Shown here: in pieces, positions 5,649 to 19,662 of the stretch
Numbering within the stretch: position 1 is the stretch's first letter
Layout: each line of letters starts with the position of its first letter
Assembly: GCF_002056795.1 (NCBI RefSeq)
Contig: NZ_CP020104.1
Location: 4,473,501-4,537,500, forward strand
Reading direction: 5' to 3'
Origin: Spirosoma aerolatum
Lineage (GTDB): Bacteria > Bacteroidota > Bacteroidia > Cytophagales > Spirosomataceae
Length of the DNA: 64,000 nucleotides
The notes under the pieces: model-generated
Database searches by the model: none
What the model was told of the DNA's origin: nothing
What the model saw: only the letters and a program-made list of their open reading frames with translations
Made by a program: the position numbers and the translations under genes

Positions 5649-7601
5649 ATGGAAGACAAAAAACATTTAGACACCGTTACCGCTGCCGGACTGCTGGTAG
5701 CCATGGGAATCATCTACGGTGATATTGGTACATCCCCTCTGTACACCCTCCGGGCGATCGTTGGACCCAATAATGCAATTCGAGCCGATGTGGTTCGTGG
5801 AGCCCTTTCCTGCGTACTCTGGACGCTCACCCTCCAGACGACGGTTAAGTACGTGATCCTGATTCTTCGGGCCGACAACCGGGGCGAAGGGGGTATTTTC
5901 GCCCTTTATGCGCTGGTACGTCGACATGCTCGCTGGCTCACATTACCGGCTATTATTGGTGGAGCGGCTTTGCTGGCCGACGGGATTATTACACCCCCAA
6001 TTTCGGTATCTTCAGCCGTTGAAGGCTTACGTTTGCTGTATCCAGCCATTACGCATATTCAAATCATTGAAATTGTAATTGCTATTCTCACGATACTATT
6101 TCTGATTCAGGCATTTGGTACAAGCGTTGTAGGGACCGCCTTTGGCCCCATTATGTTTGTGTGGTTTGTGATGCTGGGAACACTAGGTATTATTCAAATC
6201 GCTCAGGCACCAGGGATTCTGTCGGCTATAAATCCCTATTACGCGTATTGGCTACTAACCGAATACCCCGGCGGGTTCTGGCTTCTTGGCTCGGTTTTCC
6301 TTTGTACAACGGGAGCCGAAGCTCTGTATTCCGACATGGGGCACTGCGGCCGGGCCAATATTCGGGTTAGTTGGGTATTTGTCAAAACCTGCCTGATTCT
6401 CAACTATTTCGGACAGGGTGCCTGGTTGATTGGTCAGGAAGGACAGGTTCTGAATGAGCGGATTCCGTTCTATGAAGTAATGCCCTCCTGGTTTCTGACT
6501 ATCGGTATCAGTATTGCTACAGCCGCTACGGTCATTGCCAGTCAGGCACTGATCAGCGGATCGTTCACCCTGATCAGTGAAGCCATCCGACTCAATTTCT
6601 GGCCAAAAGTTCGGCTACGTTATCCGAGTGTCCAGAAAGGACAACTTTATGTGCCCAGTGTGAATATGCTGCTATGGGCAGGCTGCGTTGGCGTGGTGCT
6701 GTATTTCCGTGAATCATCGAACATGGAAGCCGCTTACGGTCTGGCGATCACCCTGACGATGCTCATGACCACGCTGCTTATGTCGTATTACCTTTACACC
6801 CACAAGTATCAGGCCTGGTGGGTGGTTTTGTTTCTGACGGTTTATCTGGGTATTGAAGGCTCATTCCTGGTCGCTAACCTAATCAAATTCCCGCACGGTG
6901 GTTGGGTATCTGTTTTGATTGGTTCTACCATTGCCGGTGTCATGTATATCTGGCTACAGGCCTTCCAGATCAAACTTCGCCTGACCGAGTACGTTCGCAT
7001 CGATCAATACATACAGGCCATCAAAGAACTTAGCCGCGACATCAGTATTCCCAAATATGCTACGCACCTGGTGTTTATGAGCAACGCGGCCCGGCAGTCG
7101 GAGATTGAATCAAAAATTATTTACTCCATTTTCCAGAAGCGGCCAAAACGTGCCGACATCTACTGGTTCGTTCACGTCGATACGACCGATGATCCGTATA
7201 CAATGGAGTATAAAGTAAACACCATTGCCCCCGACGATGCCTATAAAGTGACGTTTAAACTGGGTTTCCGGGTCGAACAGCGTATTAACCTCTTCTTCCG
7301 CAAAGTGATCGAAGATATGGTGAAGAATAAAGAGGTGGATATTACCAGCCGTTACGAATCGCTGAGTCGTCAGAATGTAATTGGTGATTTCCGGTTCGTA
7401 GTATTGGAGAAATTTTTATCGTTTGAGAACGAACTACCTCCCCGCGAGCGGCTTATCATGAACATCTACTTTGCCATCAAGAACTTCACAACCCCCGAAG
7501 ATCGCTGGTTCGGTCTGGATAGCAGTTCAGTTAAAGTCGAAAAAGTCCCTCTGGTTATTCGTCCAGTCGAAAACGTCCAACTCAAACGCATCACTTCTTA
7601 A
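5649..7601 (+). CDS. kup: Kup-family potassium transporter
   Basis: An inner-membrane proton-coupled K+ importer. The 650 residues include the family N-terminus (AAGLLVAMGIIYGDIGTSPL), about twelve helices up to roughly residue 440, and a soluble C-terminal domain. 'GDIGTSPLYTLR' and 'FALYALVRR' are hallmark blocks of the first helices, and 'DRWFGLDSS' closes the C-terminal domain as in other Bacteroidota members. The gene is transcribed alone from a promoter with a -7 box at 5595 and a leader of about 40 nt. A TGAATGAT-type palindrome follows the stop codon. Confidence 0.92.
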   Translation: MEDKKHLDTVTAAGLLVAMGIIYGDIGTSPLYTLRAIVGPNNAIRADVVRGALSCVLWTLTLQTTVKYVILILRADNRGEGGIFALYALVRRHARWLTLPAIIGGAALLADGIITPPISVSSAVEGLRLLYPAITHIQIIEIVIAILTILFLIQAFGTSVVGTAFGPIMFVWFVMLGTLGIIQIAQAPGILSAINPYYAYWLLTEYPGGFWLLGSVFLCTTGAEALYSDMGHCGRANIRVSWVFVKTCLILNYFGQGAWLIGQEGQVLNERIPFYEVMPSWFLTIGISIATAATVIASQALISGSFTLISEAIRLNFWPKVRLRYPSVQKGQLYVPSVNMLLWAGCVGVVLYFRESSNMEAAYGLAITLTMLMTTLLMSYYLYTHKYQAWWVVLFLTVYLGIEGSFLVANLIKFPHGGWVSVLIGSTIAGVMYIWLQAFQIKLRLTEYVRIDQYIQAIKELSRDISIPKYATHLVFMSNAARQSEIESKIIYSIFQKRPKRADIYWFVHVDTTDDPYTMEYKVNTIAPDDAYKVTFKLGFRVEQRINLFFRKVIEDMVKNKEVDITSRYESLSRQNVIGDFRFVVLEKFLSFENELPPRERLIMNIYFAIKNFTTPEDRWFGLDSSSVKVEKVPLVIRPVENVQLKRITS

Positions 7602-7607
7602 TGATTG

Positions 7608-7686
7608 AATGATTGAATGATTGAATTGACGAATGGCCTTATGCCAGCTTTATTCAATCATTCAACAATTCAATCATTCAATCATT
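7608..7686. repeat. Palindrome built from TGAATGAT words, kup/epimerase junction
   Basis: Arms 7608-7628 and 7666-7686 are perfectly complementary over 21 bp. Each arm is a tandem of the octamer TGAATGAT. The word array continues on the left to 7601, and the right arm ends 6 bp before the epimerase ATG. Related elements occur at 54465-54520 and 55961-56010. It probably acts as a terminator for kup. Confidence 0.7.
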
Positions 7687-8769: not shown

Positions 8770-8824
8770 AACCGGCACTCCTTTCCTCTCTCCAGTTGTT
8801 GGAGAGAGGAAAGGAGTGCCGGTT
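8770..8824. terminator. Bidirectional terminator palindrome, 24-bp perfect stem
   Basis: Arms 8770-8793 and 8801-8824 pair perfectly around a 7-nt loop. It fills the gap between two convergent genes, and the right arm ends next to the stop codon of the DUF4249 gene at 8825. Confidence 0.75.
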
Positions 8825-10132
8825 TTAATCCCGCCAGCCTTCGGGTTTATAAGGGGTTTTTGTTTCGCTGGGCGTACAGGGCGCTGTAGGCGGACGATCA
8901 TTATTGGGCCAGATCCTTACGTTTGGCGGGAAACGATTTCCTTGATAGGGGGGCGATGGTTCGGGATTGGGACGACGGCTGTTCAGGGCATAAAACAAAT
9001 CATCCCCGATGTTATCGTGCGGTCCTGCCGGGTCCATAGCCCCTAATGGGATACCTTCTGCATCTTTCCGGTCAAGCCACTGATGATACAACGATACTGC
9101 TGAAGCAGTGAAATAACCTGCCACCGGCTCCCGGCTGTTCGCTGTATTTCGCACATTTCCGGCCAGCGCCGTTGGGGGCGAATCGGCTAGACCACCCGTA
9201 TTTTGCGTCTGTTGCTGAAGCAGTTGAAAATAGCGATAAGCGTCTTTCGTCAGCGATAGCTGCCAAACATCGACCAGGCAGGGAGCATGCTGATAAAATG
9301 GGATACTAGCCACTTTTCGTTTCACAAGTAGCCCTCCATTGCTGTATTGATCATCGAACACATTTATCGTTACGTTGCGTACAATTTCCCAGCAGGCTGT
9401 TCGGCAATTGTAGTCGTAATACCAATAACCTTTGGGAACATACGGAGCCCCATAGTCGGTCGTATACGTAGGTGGAATAAAACAGTCTTCAAACAACTCA
9501 TTCCCGGCTACAAAGTAGTATTCGTTTAAATACGTATGTGGCAAGACTTTGTACACCGAATAAACACCCTGCTGGCAGGTTTTGCACCAGTATTGCCGCT
9601 CGTAGAGTATCCAGTCCCAGCGATAATAATTATGTTGATTAACCGGGTCCTGCACATCGATAGAAATATCGTGACCAGCAGTAAAACCGTCAAATTGATT
9701 AGCGGGCAGGCTTTTCGGATTAAACTCAGCATATGCCTTTTGAATAGGTACTACAGTCGGCATAACCTGCTGGCTCGATTGATAGGTGGTTCCATCGGTT
9801 AGCGTAAACCGTAGTTGATAGGCATGCCCAGTTTGTCCTTTGAAATCGCTAGGTAGTTGGTACGATCCATCAATCGTTTCATGGCAGGTAATCAGAACGG
9901 AAGAATCGACCATTACCTGTACGGTCGCTCCGGTAATAGGCAGGGTTCCAAAACGACCCGTGAAGGGATCTGCTTTAGAGCGATTGAGTTTGATAATCTG
10001 TGCTTCGGCCCGGTCCGAAATTGTGCCATCTACCACGATAATATCGTTAGTCCCATGCAATAACAAATCTTCAGGGTCAACGCAGGCCACTACCAGCATT
10101 GTAAGTCCGACAAAAAAAAGCCGTAGGTGCAT
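8825..10132 (-). CDS. DUF4249 lipoprotein, copy 1 (last gene of operon)
   Basis: A predicted outer-membrane or surface lipoprotein of unknown function. The signal peptide ends in a lipobox (LVVAC, Cys17). An N-terminal beta domain follows (NDIIVVDGTI, near 30-125) containing the highly conserved block ETIDGSYQLPSDFKGQ at about 85-100. Later come two Cys pairs, WCKTC (182-186) and CRTAC (243-247), and an EDC near 216. The C-terminus ends TPYKPEGWRD, a tail shared by all four copies here. The gene is 18 bp downstream of copy 2, which puts it in the same transcript as the TonB receptor at 13764-16169. Similar proteins are often encoded beside TonB receptors in Bacteroidota; a role in substrate capture is inference. 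Confidence 0.85.
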   Translation of the reverse strand: MHLRLFFVGLTMLVVACVDPEDLLLHGTNDIIVVDGTISDRAEAQIIKLNRSKADPFTGRFGTLPITGATVQVMVDSSVLITCHETIDGSYQLPSDFKGQTGHAYQLRFTLTDGTTYQSSQQVMPTVVPIQKAYAEFNPKSLPANQFDGFTAGHDISIDVQDPVNQHNYYRWDWILYERQYWCKTCQQGVYSVYKVLPHTYLNEYYFVAGNELFEDCFIPPTYTTDYGAPYVPKGYWYYDYNCRTACWEIVRNVTINVFDDQYSNGGLLVKRKVASIPFYQHAPCLVDVWQLSLTKDAYRYFQLLQQQTQNTGGLADSPPTALAGNVRNTANSREPVAGYFTASAVSLYHQWLDRKDAEGIPLGAMDPAGPHDNIGDDLFYALNSRRPNPEPSPPYQGNRFPPNVRIWPNNDRPPTAPCTPSETKTPYKPEGWRD

Positions 10133-10150
10133 AGTCGAAAAGTTGCTAGA

Positions 10151-11449
10151 TCAATCTCGCCAGCCTTCGGGCTTTAGCGGGGTTTGGTTAGGGCCGGGTG
10201 TACAGGGGGCGGTGATAAAGCGGCCGTGACTACCCGGCGTAAACGGTGGTCCTTCGGGACCTTGCGTTGGCAAACGAACCTTCAGCGCGTAGAATAGTTC
10301 ATCATCGTCCTGTACAATATTTCCGGCATCGTCATAGGCACCCAGTGGAAGTTTGGTAGCGTCTTTTTTATTGAGCCAGATTTCTTTCACGGCTACCGTG
10401 CTTGCCGTAAAGAATCCGACTACCGTTTCCCTAGTATTCGTTACATTTCTGACATTCCCCACCAAAGCCGTTGGGGGCGTGTCGGCCAGACCGCCCGTAT
10501 TCTGGGTTTGCTGCTGAAACAGATAAAAATACCGGTAGGCTTCTGCCGTTAGCGACGACTGCCGCAGTTGCATTAACGCAGGCTGGCGGGTCAACAGAGG
10601 AACCTGGGCTACTTTGCGGCCCACCAACAAACCACCGTTACTGAGCTGGTCGTCGAATACATTCAGGTTATAATTACGAATCCGTGCCCAGCAGGGTGTC
10701 CGGCACAGGTAGTCGGAATACCAGTCGCCATTGGGAAAAGTCCAGCCGGAGAACACCGTTAATGGATTTACGCAGTTTTCAATAGCTTGTTTCATAGTAG
10801 CTACCACACCATTCTGGATGTAGCGGGTCTGCATGGTGTCGATGTAAATACTTTGGTAGCAGCTTTTGCACCATTTTTGCTTTTCGTACAAAATCCAGTC
10901 CCAACGATAATAATTACGCTGATCGGGCGGGTCGTTGGTGTCAACAAACGCATCATACCCTGCCCGGAAATTTGTCGGGTACAGGCCCGGCGGCAAACTG
11001 ACCGGATTGAACTGTACGCGTGCTTTATCGATTGGCGAAACTGGTAGCATCACCTGCTGACTGGATACATAACGGGGACCTTCATTGAGTGTAAACCTCA
11101 GTTGGTAGGCATGGCCCACCTGCCCGCGAAAATCATTGGGCAATCGGTAAATACCATCTTCCGTTTCTTCGGCTTTTACGACTTCGGCCGAATCTACTAT
11201 CACCTCAACCTGCGCTTTAGTAATCGGCAATACCCCAAATCGGCCTGTAAGTGGGTCAGCGCGGGAGCGATTGAGCGTAATAAGTTGCTCCTCAATCAGG
11301 TTTGTCAGGGTGCCATCTACGACTACTACATCCAACGTACCACCCAGAAGTACATCGTCTGGCTTAACACAGGCAATCGGTGACCAGCCTATGACAAGCC
11401 AACCGATCAGCCAGAACACTAAACGTTTAGTTGTATCTACGGCTTTCAT
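10151..11449 (-). CDS. DUF4249 lipoprotein, copy 2
   Basis: A paralogue of the neighbouring lipoproteins, 432 residues. It has a signal peptide with lipobox SPIAC (Cys27), a DVVVVDGTL strand near residue 40, the Cys pairs WCKSC and CRTPC, and the tail TPLKPEGWRD. It differs from the other three copies at the conserved block: ETEDGIYRLPNDFRGQ lacks the preceding Cys-His found in copies 1, 3 and 4, so it is the most diverged in that patch. Spacing is 19 bp to copy 3 upstream and 18 bp to copy 1 downstream. Function is unknown; surface location is inferred from the lipobox and the company of the TonB receptor. Confidence 0.85.
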   Translation of the reverse strand: MKAVDTTKRLVFWLIGWLVIGWSPIACVKPDDVLLGGTLDVVVVDGTLTNLIEEQLITLNRSRADPLTGRFGVLPITKAQVEVIVDSAEVVKAEETEDGIYRLPNDFRGQVGHAYQLRFTLNEGPRYVSSQQVMLPVSPIDKARVQFNPVSLPPGLYPTNFRAGYDAFVDTNDPPDQRNYYRWDWILYEKQKWCKSCYQSIYIDTMQTRYIQNGVVATMKQAIENCVNPLTVFSGWTFPNGDWYSDYLCRTPCWARIRNYNLNVFDDQLSNGGLLVGRKVAQVPLLTRQPALMQLRQSSLTAEAYRYFYLFQQQTQNTGGLADTPPTALVGNVRNVTNTRETVVGFFTASTVAVKEIWLNKKDATKLPLGAYDDAGNIVQDDDELFYALKVRLPTQGPEGPPFTPGSHGRFITAPCTPGPNQTPLKPEGWRD

Positions 11450-11468
11450 AACGTACGTTCAGGCTGGA

Positions 11469-12803
11469 CTAATCCCGCCAGCCTTCGGGTTTATTGGGTG
11501 TTCTATTATCGTTTGGCAAACAAAGGGCCGTTGGAGGACGGTTCGGGCTATTCTGTATTACCATTTGTGGAATAGCTGGCGGAGTAGGCTCCATGACAGG
11601 CTGACGTCTGTTCAACACATAAAATAGCTCTGACCCTACATCACCTCCATACCCAGCAGGCCCGGAGCCCCCAAATGATACACCAGAGGCATCTTTCCGG
11701 TCGAGCCAATACCGCAACGAGGCTAGAACAGATGCAGAAAAAAAGCCAACAACAACTTCTTTACGATTGGCTACATTATGCACATTGCCCGCCAAAACTG
11801 ACGGCGGTGTATCGGCCAGGCCACCCGTGCGTTCGGTCTGATCCTGAATCGCTTTAAAATAGCCATAAGCGTCGGCTGTGAGCGCGCTTTGCCGAATTTC
11901 GACCAAACACGGATTATAGGTATAAAACGGAATTTGCGCTGCCTTAAGTCCAGTAATTAACCCACCGTTGGTATACACATCATCGAAGACGGTAATGTCG
12001 TGACTGTAAAAGATTTCCCAGCAATTGGTACGGCACATGTAATCATAGGTGTAGTCGGGCAAAGGCGTGCGATAGGAGAAAGCGGGGGGCGTTAATTCCC
12101 GATAGCAATCTTCCAACCGGGTCGACCGATCTTCCGTGTAGCTATAATAGTTTCCCCGCGACGCATTCGACAATACCAAGCTGTCTCGAATTCCGTAAAC
12201 GGCATAAACGCCCTGCTGGCAAGTCCGACACCATTGCTGCTTTTCCCAAATCCTCCAGTCCCAGCGGTAATAATTATGGGCCTCGACAGGGTCTTTAAAT
12301 TCAACAAACAGGTCGTGCCCCGCTGTATAGAAACCATCCAGTGGTGTTCGTAAACTTTTGGGATTGAACCGGGCCGTTAGTTTATTGATCGACGGAACTG
12401 GATAAGCCGGCACAATCTGTTGAGTCGACGCATACCGGGTTCCATCCACCAGTGAAAAACGGAGTTGATATGCGTGACCGATTTGCCCTTTAAAATCGCT
12501 GGGGAGTTGGTACGAGCCATCAATGGTTTCGTGGCAGGGGATCGCTTCAGCCGAATCCACTACGACCTCTACAGTTGCCCCGGTGATTGGCGTAAAGCCG
12601 GTCTGTCCCGTAAATGGATCGGATTTTGATCGATTGAGTCGAATAACCTGTGGTTCTGGCAGATTATTAATGATCCCATCCACCACTAGCACATCCACCG
12701 TTCCGAGCAGTATTCCGTCCACAGGATCGACGCAGGCGATAAGCAACGCAGGTAACAAGCTCATTCGTAAAAACCAACGAAAAAGGCGCATGAGTTGTAT
12801 CAT
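11469..12803 (-). CDS. DUF4249 lipoprotein, copy 3
   Basis: A paralogue with lipobox LLIAC (Cys24); M5 is an alternative start. It carries the conserved block CHETIDGSYQLPSDFKGQ followed by IGHAYQLRF, the Cys pairs WCRTC and CRTNC, and the tail TPNKPEGWRD. Copies 3, 1 and 4 are especially similar across the block, including near-identical DNA, which suggests recent duplication or gene conversion. The start codon is only 2 bp after the stop of the metzincin gene, so the two are probably translationally coupled. At 444 residues it is the longest of the four, owing to extra residues between the two Cys pairs. Function is unknown. Confidence 0.85.
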   Translation of the reverse strand: MIQLMRLFRWFLRMSLLPALLIACVDPVDGILLGTVDVLVVDGIINNLPEPQVIRLNRSKSDPFTGQTGFTPITGATVEVVVDSAEAIPCHETIDGSYQLPSDFKGQIGHAYQLRFSLVDGTRYASTQQIVPAYPVPSINKLTARFNPKSLRTPLDGFYTAGHDLFVEFKDPVEAHNYYRWDWRIWEKQQWCRTCQQGVYAVYGIRDSLVLSNASRGNYYSYTEDRSTRLEDCYRELTPPAFSYRTPLPDYTYDYMCRTNCWEIFYSHDITVFDDVYTNGGLITGLKAAQIPFYTYNPCLVEIRQSALTADAYGYFKAIQDQTERTGGLADTPPSVLAGNVHNVANRKEVVVGFFSASVLASLRYWLDRKDASGVSFGGSGPAGYGGDVGSELFYVLNRRQPVMEPTPPAIPQMVIQNSPNRPPTALCLPNDNRTPNKPEGWRD

Positions 12804-12805
12804 CG

Positions 12806-13750
12806 TTACCGTATGAATGAGCTGTTTTGTAGAATTACTTTATCGCCCGAAGTCAACTGACAGGTCAGAAAAACAGGACGCGGGGCATCAGGGAAATAGC
12901 CACTGTTATCAACTGGCCCAAACATAAGTGCATCTGGATTCAGATTGTGCGACAGCCCCAAGGCATGACCCAACTCATGCGCTGTTGTCCAATAGCCAAG
13001 ATTTTGGCCGCTAGGGTCTGTTTTAGTCAGGCTCTGACAGGCGCTAGCCCCAATAAGCCCGACCCGCCGGTCAATTCCATTCTGTTGAGTAGCTATACCT
13101 ACTCCTTCGGCACTAGCAATTCCCATCGGATAAAATACCAGGAAGACCTGTTCGTTCGGATTTAGTTTCGCTGCTGTTTTTTTATAGATCTCTTCCGAAA
13201 TACTGTTTAACAGGTCGATGGAGTTGACCCCATATTCATAGCTGTAGCGACTACAGTGAAGCGTATCGACAATCGGTGTATTTAAAGTAAAAGTTTGACC
13301 ACTCAACCGCTGACCATACCAGGTTTGAACAATGGGCATTGCCTTTCGGATCGCAGCCAGCAAACCTGGGTCGAAATCCCGCTCTTTAGGGACCATATAT
13401 AACACGGCTACGCTAATCCGTCTGAACGGAACCTCGACCCGTTTCATGACCGACTGACTCAACTCACCATACGTTACTGTCAAACGTACAGGAAATGAAC
13501 CGCTTGAATCATACGGAATAACAGGAGAAAATTCCTTTGAACTTCGTCCGTTTCCAAAATCCCACTGGGCAGCGCCTGTACTATCCGATACATTTACAAA
13601 CTGAACACGTATAGGGTAATTCAGTGAACGAGCGGCCGTCGCCATAAAGTCAACGTTGCGCGATGGGGCCATAGTAGCCTCTCTGGAGCAGGCCATCGGC
13701 AACCCGATAGCCCCTGCACAAACCAACAAAATCAGGCAGAAGAAGCGCAT
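12806..13750 (-). CDS. Lipoprotein metzincin-type zinc protease with PKD-like domain
   Basis: A predicted surface or periplasmic metallopeptidase of 314 residues. The signal peptide ends in a lipobox (PMAC, Cys21). A PKD-like beta domain lies at about 35-108 (AQWDFGNGRSS, then the FPVRLTVTYG strand). The catalytic domain carries HELGHALGLSH at 258-268, which is the HExxHxxGxxH zinc motif, followed by ALMF at 274-277 as a probable Met-turn. This places it with the metzincins (matrixin or archaemetzincin-like), but the subfamily is unclear. It lies 13 bp after the TonB receptor gene and 2 bp before DUF4249 copy 3. It could process a substrate at the surface or trim its lipoprotein partners; both are inference. 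Confidence 0.85.
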   Translation of the reverse strand: MRFFCLILLVCAGAIGLPMACSREATMAPSRNVDFMATAARSLNYPIRVQFVNVSDSTGAAQWDFGNGRSSKEFSPVIPYDSSGSFPVRLTVTYGELSQSVMKRVEVPFRRISVAVLYMVPKERDFDPGLLAAIRKAMPIVQTWYGQRLSGQTFTLNTPIVDTLHCSRYSYEYGVNSIDLLNSISEEIYKKTAAKLNPNEQVFLVFYPMGIASAEGVGIATQQNGIDRRVGLIGASACQSLTKTDPSGQNLGYWTTAHELGHALGLSHNLNPDALMFGPVDNSGYFPDAPRPVFLTCQLTSGDKVILQNSSFIR

Positions 13751-13763
13751 TCCGTTGAGCCGT

Positions 13764-16169
13764 TTACTTAAACTCGAAATTGTAGGTCAGGCTAGGAATC
13801 GGAGCAGCGAAAATACTCAGCCGATACGGGTTAGTCGCCTGTCCCTCAGTCCGGTAAAAGATCGAGTACACATTCCGGCGACCGTACAGATTATATACGG
13901 TAAAGGTCCAGTGCCCCTGCCACCGACGATGCTTCATGCTGGGGTTGTAGATGTTCCAGGCGAAATCCAGCCGATGGTAATCGGGTAGCCGGTACTGATT
14001 CCGTTCGTCGTAATACGGATAGGTGCGTCCCTGATAGCGAATGAACCCTTCTGGAGCCGTATACGGTCGGCCGGTACTGTAGGCAAAATTGAACGAAAAA
14101 CTGTGATGTCGTCCCTGGTTGATATTCAGGCTTATATTGACACTATGTGGTCGGTCGTAATTGGCTCGGTACCAATCGCCACCATTGATCTGCTGCTGAA
14201 AATCGACCCCAGCGGCTACCTGGTTCAGCGTTCGGGCATAGGTGTAGTTAACCCAACCCGTGAGCTCGCCCTTCTTTTTGGCCATCATGATTTCCAGCCC
14301 ATAGGCCTTGCTTCGACCGGGTAGCAATTGCGTTTCGGGATAGGGTTGCAACAGAAAATCAGCCCCCGGTTTGTAATCCAGAATATGCTGGGTACTACGC
14401 CAGTACACCTCAGCCGACAACTCAAAAATGTTATTCTTCGAATTATGAAAATACCCCGCCGACCATAGCTGACTCACCTGCGGCTGGATGTGCGCATCCG
14501 AGGTTTTCCAGCGCGACGTAGGTAATGGCGTTGTAGTATTGGTAATCACCTGCAAATACTGCCGCATCAGGTTATAACCCAGTTTGATGGATGAGTTATC
14601 ACCCAATGCATAGCGTAAACCCAGCCTGGGTTCAAATCCACCGTATTGACCCGCCACCTGACCAGCCCCGTATCGGACGGAATCAACCACATTGGTGATA
14701 TCGTAAACAGCACCGCTCGTTCCTTCACTACCGTAACGACGAACTACTGATGGGCCCAGACTAAGAAAATGGGAATACCGAAGCCCCACCGACACCGCCA
14801 GCTTTTCTGAAACACTAATCTCATCTTCAGCATGGATGCCCAGTTCCATAGCATTTTCGATGGGTGTCCGCTGATAATTCACCGCGAGGCTGTTGTTCGG
14901 TATCAACTCGCCGGGATTCAGTCGGTAATGGGTTCCGCTAATCCCGATTTCAATTTTCTGATTCTCTAACTGATAGTTCAGGTTCGACTTGAGCTGCCGT
15001 TGCAAGAGCGACTGTTTCAAGACCACTTTATTGAATGTGCTGTCCTCAGTCGATAGGATACGAGGAATATACTGAGCCACCAATGCTGTGGTTTGCAGAT
15101 TCAGACGGGGGTTGAAGGCATGGAACCAGCGTACCATCCCATTAGCTGTTTGCTGGGCGTACTGCGTATTAATTGCATTCACATTCGCCAGACTACCCAA
15201 TAGATTGGTCTGGAACAAATCCTGACTGAAATACCCCATTGCCGTAACCGTGTTGCGGTCGTCGATGCGCCAGAAAAGCTTAGCAGTCCCATCACCAAAC
15301 TTAGCCCGGATATCGTCCAGTCGTTTGGAGGCCAGTCGAAGCAGAAAATCGTTAAAAGCACCTCGACCCGAAATCAATAATCCCAGTTTTCCTTTTATAA
15401 TTGGGGTTTCGACCGTTAACCGATTGGCAACCAGACTAGCTCCACCGCTCAGCTTAAACTCGTTCAGATCAGGATTGCGCAAGCTAATGTCCAGCACCGA
15501 AGCCGCTCGCCCACCGTACCGAGCGGGCACATTACCTTTGTATAAATCAAGGCCTCCTACGGCATCGGGCGGGAATACCGAAAAAAGCCCAAACATGTGG
15601 GTAGGATTAAAAATGGGCGTATCGTCCATCAGAATCAGGTTCTGATCGGTTGTTCCACCCCGGATATTGACTCCGTTGGCCGCTTCGCCCACACTCGTAA
15701 CACCCGGCAGCATTTGCAGACTACGCATAATATCGACCTCCCCTAAAGCAGCCGGCATCTTCTTGAGCGTAGCAATATTAATTTGACTGACACCCAGCAA
15801 CGGCTGACGAACATTCCGATCGTATCCTTTACTGGTAACGACTACCTCTTCGAGCTGGCTGGCTACGGAGGGTAAGCGTACATCCAGGGTAGTGTTGCCC
15901 CGAATGGAAATCGTTGTTCGGAAGGGGACAAAGCCAATACTACGCACCACCACAATGTGCTGGCCCATCCGGGCCTTGATCGAATAGTGCCCCTGCTCGT
16001 CGGTGTACGTACCCGTAGCCGACTTGTCATAGTCCAGCACAACAGCCGCCCGAACAACGGGTTGATTGGAGGTTGAGTCTCGAATCGTACCCGATAGAGT
16101 GTAAAGAATCTGGGCAGAAGCCGCTATACTGCTCAGCCCGAGAAGAAGGATAAATACGAATCGAAGCAT
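13764..16169 (-). CDS. TonB-dependent receptor with carboxypeptidase-like N-terminal domain, no SusD partner
   Basis: An outer-membrane beta-barrel importer of 801 residues, energised by TonB. A signal peptide (ending ASAQ) is followed by a carboxypeptidase-regulatory-like Ig domain (about 20-105, LSGTIRDSTSNQPV), the junction LEEVVVTSKG, a plug (about 110-245, with VNIRGG and YKGNVPARYGG), and a 22-strand barrel ending in the aromatic C-terminus NFEFK. It is the first gene of a minus-strand operon with a metzincin and three DUF4249 lipoproteins. There is no SusD homologue beside it, so DUF4249 proteins may fill the lipoprotein-lid role; that is inference. The promoter must lie in 16170-16400, shared with the divergent fourth DUF4249 gene. 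Confidence 0.9.
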   Translation of the reverse strand: MLRFVFILLLGLSSIAASAQILYTLSGTIRDSTSNQPVVRAAVVLDYDKSATGTYTDEQGHYSIKARMGQHIVVVRSIGFVPFRTTISIRGNTTLDVRLPSVASQLEEVVVTSKGYDRNVRQPLLGVSQINIATLKKMPAALGEVDIMRSLQMLPGVTSVGEAANGVNIRGGTTDQNLILMDDTPIFNPTHMFGLFSVFPPDAVGGLDLYKGNVPARYGGRAASVLDISLRNPDLNEFKLSGGASLVANRLTVETPIIKGKLGLLISGRGAFNDFLLRLASKRLDDIRAKFGDGTAKLFWRIDDRNTVTAMGYFSQDLFQTNLLGSLANVNAINTQYAQQTANGMVRWFHAFNPRLNLQTTALVAQYIPRILSTEDSTFNKVVLKQSLLQRQLKSNLNYQLENQKIEIGISGTHYRLNPGELIPNNSLAVNYQRTPIENAMELGIHAEDEISVSEKLAVSVGLRYSHFLSLGPSVVRRYGSEGTSGAVYDITNVVDSVRYGAGQVAGQYGGFEPRLGLRYALGDNSSIKLGYNLMRQYLQVITNTTTPLPTSRWKTSDAHIQPQVSQLWSAGYFHNSKNNIFELSAEVYWRSTQHILDYKPGADFLLQPYPETQLLPGRSKAYGLEIMMAKKKGELTGWVNYTYARTLNQVAAGVDFQQQINGGDWYRANYDRPHSVNISLNINQGRHHSFSFNFAYSTGRPYTAPEGFIRYQGRTYPYYDERNQYRLPDYHRLDFAWNIYNPSMKHRRWQGHWTFTVYNLYGRRNVYSIFYRTEGQATNPYRLSIFAAPIPSLTYNFEFK

Positions 16170-16275
16170 GAAAAGAAAAGGTAAACTAGGGTGCGGTTAT
16201 ACTTTATTGCACACAGGAGCCTTGTTCTATTCAGTGAGGAGGGAACAATAGACTAGTGTTCAACAGTATATGATA

Positions 16276-16363
16276 CTATTTAGTTAAACCATCTTTTCTG
16301 TAAAATCTACCTATAAGCATAGTCCACTTGCTAGAACAGCCTCTTAATTCGTTAACTAAATAG
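16276..16363. promoter_or_regulatory. Widely spaced 12-bp inverted repeat in the divergent control region
   Basis: CTATTTAGTTAA at 16276-16287 is repeated in inverse as TTAACTAAATAG at 16352-16363, perfect over 12 bp with 64 bp between the arms. It lies between the divergent TonB receptor operon and DUF4249 copy 4. It could be a pair of operator sites for a regulator controlling both sides. The long spacing makes a terminator unlikely. Confidence 0.45.
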
Positions 16364-16400
16364 CAATCCAGCCGTACTGGACAGCTTATTTATCAGGAGT

Positions 16401-17699
16401 ATGCGTTCATTTCTTTTGCTTTCGCTCTGTCTATCAATCACCTACTGGCTTACCGCCTGTGTCGATTCACTTGATCTTACTCTCAACAGTTCGATCGATG
16501 TGCTGGTCGTGGATGGCACGATCACAAACCTACCAGAGCCGCAGGTGATCCGACTGAATCGCTCCAAAGCCGACCGGCTGACCGGTCGTTTTGGAGCCGT
16601 ACCCGTTACGAAAGCCACGGTAGAAATCATCGTGGACTCGACTCAGGTTATTCCCTGCCACGAAACCGTTGACGGTACCTATCAACTTCCCAGTGATTTT
16701 AAAGGACAAATTGGGCACGCCTATCAACTGCGGTTTACCCTTTCCGATGGTACTCGCTATCAATCGACACAGCAGGTTATGCCAGCTGTACCCCCAATTC
16801 GTAGTGTATCAGCCCGCTTCAATCCCGTGGCATTGCCCGTTGAGCAGCAGTTGGATGGAGGCTACCGAGCTGGGCACGACGTTTTTATTGAGACGCAGGA
16901 CCCCGCCGATCAGCCAAATTATTACCGCTGGGACTGGAAGCTCTGGGAAAAACAAAGCTGGTGCCGGAGTTGTCATGAAGGAATTTATTCCGTGAATAAC
17001 ATCCTGCTTCACACCTACAAAGACAAAACATTTTACGTAGCAGGCAATGACCTCTATGAAGACTGTTTCGTTCCCGTAAATTATATGGAAGCTGGTCAGC
17101 CGCCCTTTCAGACTGGGTTATATGTCTATGATTACCCCTGCCGTACCGATTGCTGGGAAATTCTCTATAGCTATGCACTGAATGTATTCGATGATCAATA
17201 CACGAATGGGAGTCTCATTCAGCATCGGTCCGTGGCTCAGATTCCTTATTATGATAGCACTGCCTGCCTGGTCGAAATTCGTCAGTCGTCACTAACCCAA
17301 TCCGCTCATGCCTACTTCAATCAATTTCAGCGCACCCAATTGACTAATGGGCTGACCGATACGGCCCCTTCCGCACCTGTCGGTAACATTCGAAATATGG
17401 CTGATAGTCGGGAGAAAGTAGTAGGGTACTTTACAGCATCGGCCGTGTCGGCCAAACGATACTGGATCGACCGAAACGATGTGAATGGGCTTCCCTTTGG
17501 CAACATCGTTCCTGAAAAAGTGCCCTGGCAACCTGGTGCAGCCTTTTTTTATTCCTTAAACCGTAGGCAACCGATACCAGAACCCATTTATCCATACCCC
17601 AGCATCCGAATATGGGGTGGCCCTCCCCGACCGGTTACTGCCATTTGCGTACCCAGCGACAGCCGAACGCCGTTTAAGCCAGAAGGTTGGCAGGAGTAG
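16401..17699 (+). CDS. DUF4249 lipoprotein, copy 4 (divergent)
   Basis: The fourth paralogue, 432 residues, transcribed away from the TonB receptor operon. AGGAG just before the ATG is one of the few good Shine-Dalgarno sites in the window. Lipobox WLTAC (Cys20) follows the signal peptide. It has DVLVVDGTI near residue 34, the block CHETVDGTYQLPSDFKGQ, WCRSC, EDC, CRTDC, and a slightly altered tail TPFKPEGWQE. Its position and shared control region suggest it is co-regulated with the receptor. Function is unknown. Confidence 0.85.
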   Translation: MRSFLLLSLCLSITYWLTACVDSLDLTLNSSIDVLVVDGTITNLPEPQVIRLNRSKADRLTGRFGAVPVTKATVEIIVDSTQVIPCHETVDGTYQLPSDFKGQIGHAYQLRFTLSDGTRYQSTQQVMPAVPPIRSVSARFNPVALPVEQQLDGGYRAGHDVFIETQDPADQPNYYRWDWKLWEKQSWCRSCHEGIYSVNNILLHTYKDKTFYVAGNDLYEDCFVPVNYMEAGQPPFQTGLYVYDYPCRTDCWEILYSYALNVFDDQYTNGSLIQHRSVAQIPYYDSTACLVEIRQSSLTQSAHAYFNQFQRTQLTNGLTDTAPSAPVGNIRNMADSREKVVGYFTASAVSAKRYWIDRNDVNGLPFGNIVPEKVPWQPGAAFFYSLNRRQPIPEPIYPYPSIRIWGGPPRPVTAICVPSDSRTPFKPEGWQE

Positions 17700-19628: not shown

Positions 19629-19662
19629 AAGCCCGTGCGCCCACCAACGTACGGGCTTTTTT
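19629..19662 (+). terminator. Intrinsic terminator after phosphohexomutase gene
   Basis: Stem 19629-19639 with 19648-19658 (11 bp, one mismatch), followed by a T-run to 19662. It is a classical rho-independent structure 47 bp after the stop codon. Confidence 0.8.

Follow-up and report, generated by a model that had tools for sequence, protein, structure and literature searches.

Many candidate DUF4249 lids for one TonB-dependent receptor in Spirosoma

In Bacteroidota, ligand import through a TonB-dependent receptor can involve a surface lipoprotein that closes over the barrel as a lid. The available passages on BtuB-BtuG (vitamin B12) and XusA-XusB (DUF4374, ferric siderophores) describe a lipoprotein lid that binds the ligand and caps the receptor, and they propose that closing of the lid hands the ligand to the barrel (PMC10404256, PMC13142918). 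As far as those passages go, each barrel has its own lid, which is a beta-propeller in BtuG and XusB; the family considered here is DUF4249. The present work concerns a locus encoding one TonB-dependent receptor, a metzincin protease and four DUF4249 lipoproteins, termed D1 to D4, in Spirosoma aerolatum, the genome of which is one 7.96-Mb contig. The locus lies within a stretch of 64,000 nucleotides (contig NZ_CP020104.1, positions 4,473,501 to 4,537,500), referred to below as the window. We consider it rather likely that one TonB receptor is served by many exchangeable lids of a long DUF4249 subfamily, some of them acting in trans.

The closest described systems are the BT2172/BT2173-type pairs of Bacteroides, for which the accessible part of one paper proposes DUF4249 as the partner of a TonB receptor (PMC11003636). 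There, as here, the DUF4249 protein is encoded beside the receptor with which it is proposed to work. A 2023 preprint by Price, Deutschbauer and Arkin, cited for these pairs, reportedly speaks of lids in its title. Unlike those pairs, which have one DUF4249 partner in the account at hand, the system considered here includes up to eight linked long DUF4249 proteins per receptor together with unlinked ones, and in these proteins one loop carries Cys residues and a stretch near the C-terminus varies. The array of surface B12-binding lipoproteins at BtuB loci offers a partial precedent, but that array serves one ligand according to the same excerpts (PMC10404256, PMC13142918). SusC/SusD and RagA/RagB likewise combine a barrel with a lipoprotein lid; however, the receptor studied here falls below the SusC/RagA model TIGR04056 (61 bits against a cut-off of 368.25) and does not belong to that family, and no SusD match was found with Pfam in any of the six genes, in agreement with the initial annotation. 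In the literature searched, which comprised titles and the beginnings of abstracts, with preprints and most subscription papers outside it, DUF4249 is named only in PMC11003636, and no description of many lids per receptor, unlinked ones included, was found, which is a weak absence. Since a lid role has already been proposed and the multi-lid expansion was not found in that literature, many lids per receptor, some encoded far away, look like the new part.

The ORFs of the locus agree with the initial annotation in coordinates and strands. The receptor, protease, D3, D2 and D1 genes follow one another on the minus strand, separated by 13, 2, 19 and 18 bp; D4 is divergent on the plus strand (Table 1). 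Also as annotated initially, DUF4249 (PF14054) is found in all four lipoproteins, at 115-119.5 bits against a Pfam cut-off of 28.5. The genome holds 15 DUF4249 genes, four of them in the window. Among the 11 others, nine lie in loci with a TonB receptor related to that of the window, and two (L022 and L024) have no adjoining receptor. With 13 of the 15 genes sharing a locus with a related receptor, the scattered, receptor-independent distribution that the initial annotation had named as its refutation does not apply. These two unlinked copies, at C1:4342502-4343698 and C1:4833444-4834781, went unnoticed in the initial annotation; like the four window proteins, they are members of a long DUF4249 subfamily. 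At the cut-offs used, the genome thus encodes six long lids, against a single receptor from the clade that goes with them. Five Cys residues within residues 183-247 are present in all 98 proteins aligned (the window four and 94 of the best 120 matches), while this stretch is largely missing from three shorter DUF4249 proteins that were aligned, as is much of residues 346-418. By loose sequence rules, a lipobox-like Cys is present in 128 of 128 long members, and at least two acidic residues occur at positions +2 to +7 in 106 of them. This pattern fits the surface-export signal described in the available text of PMC10404256.

Receptor and long DUF4249 proteins are present or missing together. 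The receptor clade (E <= 1e-220) is present in 30 of the 36 Spirosoma genomes, that of the window included, with relatives 63-98% identical. Near-full-length long DUF4249 proteins (E <= 1e-50, at least 300 of 434 model positions) occur in the same 30 genomes and are missing from the same six (Fisher p 5e-7, uncorrected for kinship), whose receptors are all more distant (best E 2e-199 to 1e-191). Placing the six genomes on the tree of the neighbouring phosphoglucomutase (pgm) gene, a single-gene tree with some weak nodes, requires five changes, which are read as about five joint losses of receptor and lids. In a second genus, g8, receptor and long DUF4249 are found in the same 13 of 48 genomes, with one lid each, located 25-70 bp from the receptor as measured between matched parts (Fisher p 5e-12, uncorrected for kinship, with the split made after both lists had been seen). 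The g8 receptor set consists of best matches with E = 0, the others standing at 1e-158 or weaker than 1e-169, and long DUF4249 proteins were taken at E <= 1e-70; these scans scored only four and seven candidates per genome. Furthermore, a DUF4249 ORF lies within 1 kb of the receptor in 40 of 40 receptor-orthologue stretches, picked by receptor similarity. The long DUF4249 proteins are genetically coupled to one receptor clade, as lids would be. Linkage and joint presence and absence therefore back the lid role suggested in the initial annotation, a role that others had already proposed in the accessible part of their paper (PMC11003636).

The number of lids exceeds that of receptors by a wide margin. 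Across Spirosoma, 126 long DUF4249 proteins (138 rows, of which 12 shorter than 300 positions were dropped) stand against 42 receptor rows; one fragmented genome (G207) contributes two of these rows as pieces. According to a 3-kb chain rule, 83 lids are linked to a receptor and 43 are unlinked, and all 43 occur in receptor-bearing genomes; some of the unlinked lids are close to the end of a contig, and others, such as G183:C19:35777, fall outside the rule by only a few kb. Linked lids range from 0 to 8 per receptor row, with none in two rows and two or more in 16. The initial annotation had noted several paralogues per channel, and the expansion is larger than stated there: six in this genome and 17 in one relative (G183), the largest set, many of them unlinked. 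A tree of 128 long members, drawn partly from other genera, places every lid of this genome, whether in the window or unlinked, with counterparts from other species, and it indicates an origin of unlinked copies in several clades; the tree was built with a quick method, and 28 of its 125 inner branches are weak. The neighbours of unlinked lids are mostly non-recurring. Among 340 neighbour ORFs, surveyed in 41 stretches holding the 43 unlinked lids and in one further array stretch, the most widespread family occurs in five loci, and many of the remaining recurring neighbours reflect synteny of the three closest genomes. Two arrays have features of their own. In L090 (G213), the lid array is largely split into partial ORFs, which could be either real pseudogenes or assembly frameshift errors. 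In the longest array (G183), L089:1190-2671 encodes a 493-aa protein with a redoxin/thioredoxin-like domain; lying beside lids with five invariant Cys residues, it possibly forms or repairs their disulfides.

Against the orthologues in G202, dN/dS is 0.037 for the receptor, 0.060 for D1, 0.085 for D3 and 0.066 for D4, and the values for the two unlinked copies, 0.093 and 0.050, show that both are under purifying selection like D1, D3 and D4. When the six paralogues of this genome are compared with one another, identity is 33% in residues 183-247 and 346-418 and 57% in the core. In orthologue groups, each spanning two or three species, identity of these two segments is 89-98% in five of six groups, near the core value or higher, although the segments were picked after the paralogue profile had been seen and D1 had already been examined there, the other groups being new. 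Loop and core identities are 0.96/0.90 for D1, 0.89/0.92 for D2, 0.95/0.95 for D3, 0.92/0.93 for D4 and 0.98/0.91 for O24; in wider groups they are 0.76/0.76 for D4, 0.79/0.75 for O24 and 0.71/0.87 for O22. Because the segments differ between lineages and are fixed within them, they show the pattern that would be expected of ligand-specificity loops.

From these observations, we infer a mechanism in which the shared core of each long DUF4249 protein would dock on the common receptor, while the Cys loop (183-247) and the C-terminal stretch (346-418) would capture a ligand particular to that lid. By analogy with BtuBG and XusAB, the lid might then pass its ligand to the shared channel in a "pedal-bin" manner, whereupon TonB would open the channel. 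The six lids of this genome, four at the locus and two unlinked, would probably share or compete for one receptor, and the cell could therefore widen its ligand range by adding lids rather than channels. A more elaborate version, at slightly below even chances in our estimate, is a hub importer in which one receptor accepts an expandable set of interchangeable DUF4249 lids, some supplied by the operon and others in trans by single genes dispersed elsewhere. Every lid would have its own ligand, the docked lid would set specificity, and lid genes would be inserted behind the receptor as cassettes. If one receptor does serve many lids, duplicating lids would be enough to widen the substrate range in Bacteroidota, the range of uptake would be underestimated by counting receptors, and lipoprotein genes that lie scattered without a transport neighbour could be assigned to a receptor. 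A genome with one conserved receptor and as many as 17 lids (G183) offers a clean test set.

In a reading along the lines of the initial annotation, the metzincin would trim surface proteins or glycoproteins, the receptor would import the peptides, and the DUF4249 proteins would be lids. The protease itself appears competent for such a task: Pfam assigns it to Peptidase_M10 at 26.1 bits (cut-off 24) with borderline PKD matches; H258, E259, H262, G265, H268 and M276, which make up the HExxHxxGxxH motif and Met-turn, are invariant in a 13-row alignment; and its fold matches those of metzincins, near-tied among many of them. Its gene also sits tightly within the operon, between the 13-bp and 2-bp gaps. 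Nevertheless, the corresponding operon of G202 and G195, the two closest relatives, lacks the gene (blastn), with breakpoints at 13746 (both relatives) and 12736 (G202) that bound an insert of about 1.0 kb, and it occurs in 0 of the 40 receptor-orthologue stretches of 3.8-18 kb, so that this protease does not recur with the receptor as the dedicated surface hydrolase of a utilization locus would. A strong match was found only in the window's own genome, among 222 family genomes (no other above 40 bits) as well as 390 order and 395 class genomes (both at E <= 1e-25), these samples overlapping and few candidates being scored per genome. Some match at E <= 1e-3 exists in 70 of the 222 family genomes, but all except the window's own reach at most 39.6 bits; most cover the PKD part, and a few span the catalytic residues at 22-24% identity (e.g., G134, G137, G080 and G221). 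A scan of named GTDB genomes gave at least 37 loci, mostly short matches around the zinc motif, with none full length among those listed. Compared with metzincin proteases such as the matrixins and the O-glycopeptidase OgpA, the window protease, with its PKD domain, represents a small, rare subfamily, with 12 homologues besides itself in a set of 5.8 billion proteins. One of them, 70% identical, lies on a contig of 4,037,608 bases, a size also given for the contigs of four long DUF4249 proteins; the contigs of other homologues (20,227, 14,662, 8,263 and 5,199 bases) are not among the best 120 DUF4249 matches listed (clustered). Since D3 gained a new 5' end with the insertion, protease and DUF4249 genes may have been neighbours in the donor already, which lends the peptide-import reading some further support. 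Being absent from the closest relatives' operon and from all 40 orthologue stretches, the protease is not a core part, a role rejected on the synteny comparison and the family, order and class scans. Its gene was probably inserted only recently, as an optional element, in first place behind the receptor gene, and it should not serve for guessing the cargo; the hint at a peptide substrate that the initial annotation had drawn from it is not supported, and the combined protease-receptor machine is very unlikely. In a related locus, L124:10194-15419, two large proteins with the metzincin-like motifs HEVGHTLGLPH and HEVGHQFGMSH are encoded about 3 kb from a receptor-lid pair, and no relationship to the window protease was detected.

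Two other explanations retain the receptor and question what the lids do. One account treats the paralogues as copies that raise dosage, or as lids for the same ligand under different growth conditions, with no widening of range, which would suit cores that are about 57% identical and a single receptor serving the locus; dosage copies, however, would not need differences concentrated in two segments that five of six lineages conserve from species to species, and this account seems unlikely. In turn, the long DUF4249 proteins are quite unlikely to be adhesins of the surface, to bind other partners or to act as co-receptors next to the barrel. The distance of unlinked copies from the receptor would suit such roles, as would a phmmer search with DUF4249 that finds no solved relative (best E 0.047), but in two genera the long proteins, unlinked copies included, are present or missing together with the receptor. 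Beyond the phmmer result, several observations weigh against many exchangeable lids per receptor. Exactly one linked long DUF4249 accompanies 24 of the 42 receptor rows, making a one-to-one ratio the commonest state, and three or more of the 43 lids counted as unlinked (G215:C83) belong to an array on a short, broken contig ending in a receptor fragment. D2 has a dN/dS of 0.317 with low dS (0.13 against G202, compared with 0.39-0.46 for the other three lids), which suggests local recombination, and the L022 lineage breaks the loop pattern, with loop and core identities of 0.78/0.88. Cut-offs, that of the receptor among them, were chosen after the receptor scores had been seen, and receptor-less G212 contains a long DUF4249 as two partial, stop-interrupted matches, so that the tally without the coverage filter is 31. 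Finally, the paralogues could serve different conditions or other functions. With these points taken into account, one receptor with many exchangeable lids is still the reading that we favor.

Table 1. Features of the receptor-DUF4249 locus (window coordinates)
Feature	Position	Strand	Basis
TonB-dependent receptor, 801 aa, CarboxypepD_reg_2-Plug-barrel, not SusC	13764..16169	-	ORFs, Pfam, TIGR04056
PKD-metzincin lipoprotein, HELGHALGLSH, Met-turn ALMF	12806..13750	-	Pfam, alignment, fold match
D3, long-subfamily DUF4249 lipoprotein, 444 aa	11469..12803	-	ORF, Pfam, alignment, tree
D2, long-subfamily DUF4249 lipoprotein, 432 aa	10151..11449	-	ORF, Pfam, alignment, tree
D1, long-subfamily DUF4249 lipoprotein, 435 aa	8825..10132	-	ORF, Pfam, alignment, tree
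D4, divergent long-subfamily DUF4249 lipoprotein, 432 aa	16401..17699	+	ORF, Pfam, alignment, tree
Extra block relative to closest relative: protease gene and first 67 nt of D3	12737..13745	-	blastn breakpoints
Intergenic region, receptor/D4	16170..16400	.	alignment of three species over the ~205 nt next to the receptor, mean column identity 82%
Inverted repeat directly after D1, 25 bp, perfect, loop of 5 nt	8770..8824	-	repeat search

The region between receptor and D4 probably holds divergent promoters, and the inverted repeat after D1 is a probable terminator. Invertible switching of D4 was considered and rejected: the inverted arms are paralogue matches 70-75% alike, and D4 occupies the same place in both closest relatives (G202 and G195). 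A true SusC gene (887 bits with TIGR04056) starts at 19635, 3.5 kb beyond the start of the receptor.

Related receptors show a further domain arrangement. In L102:10944-14339 and L122:10290-13871, and also in L103, L104, L123, L215, L216 and L217, receptors of the clade have an N-terminal alpha/beta-hydrolase domain ahead of the plug, which Pfam assigns to BD-FAE/Abhydrolase_3 in the two tested. In an alignment inspected by eye, none of the eight full fused domains keeps the catalytic His of stand-alone homologues (GGHGF-like), and three of the eight also lack the Ser; only remnants of the domain are present in L218 and L219. The fused domain seems to be an esterase domain that is decaying, or has taken on another role, as part of a transporter. 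In another relative, L088:2506-3519 (G203), a beta-lactamase-fold gene (PF00144) separates the receptor from the divergent lid. In the window itself, repeats of the AATGATTG type, with near-perfect inverted copies, occupy positions 7600-7686 at the start of an epimerase ORF.

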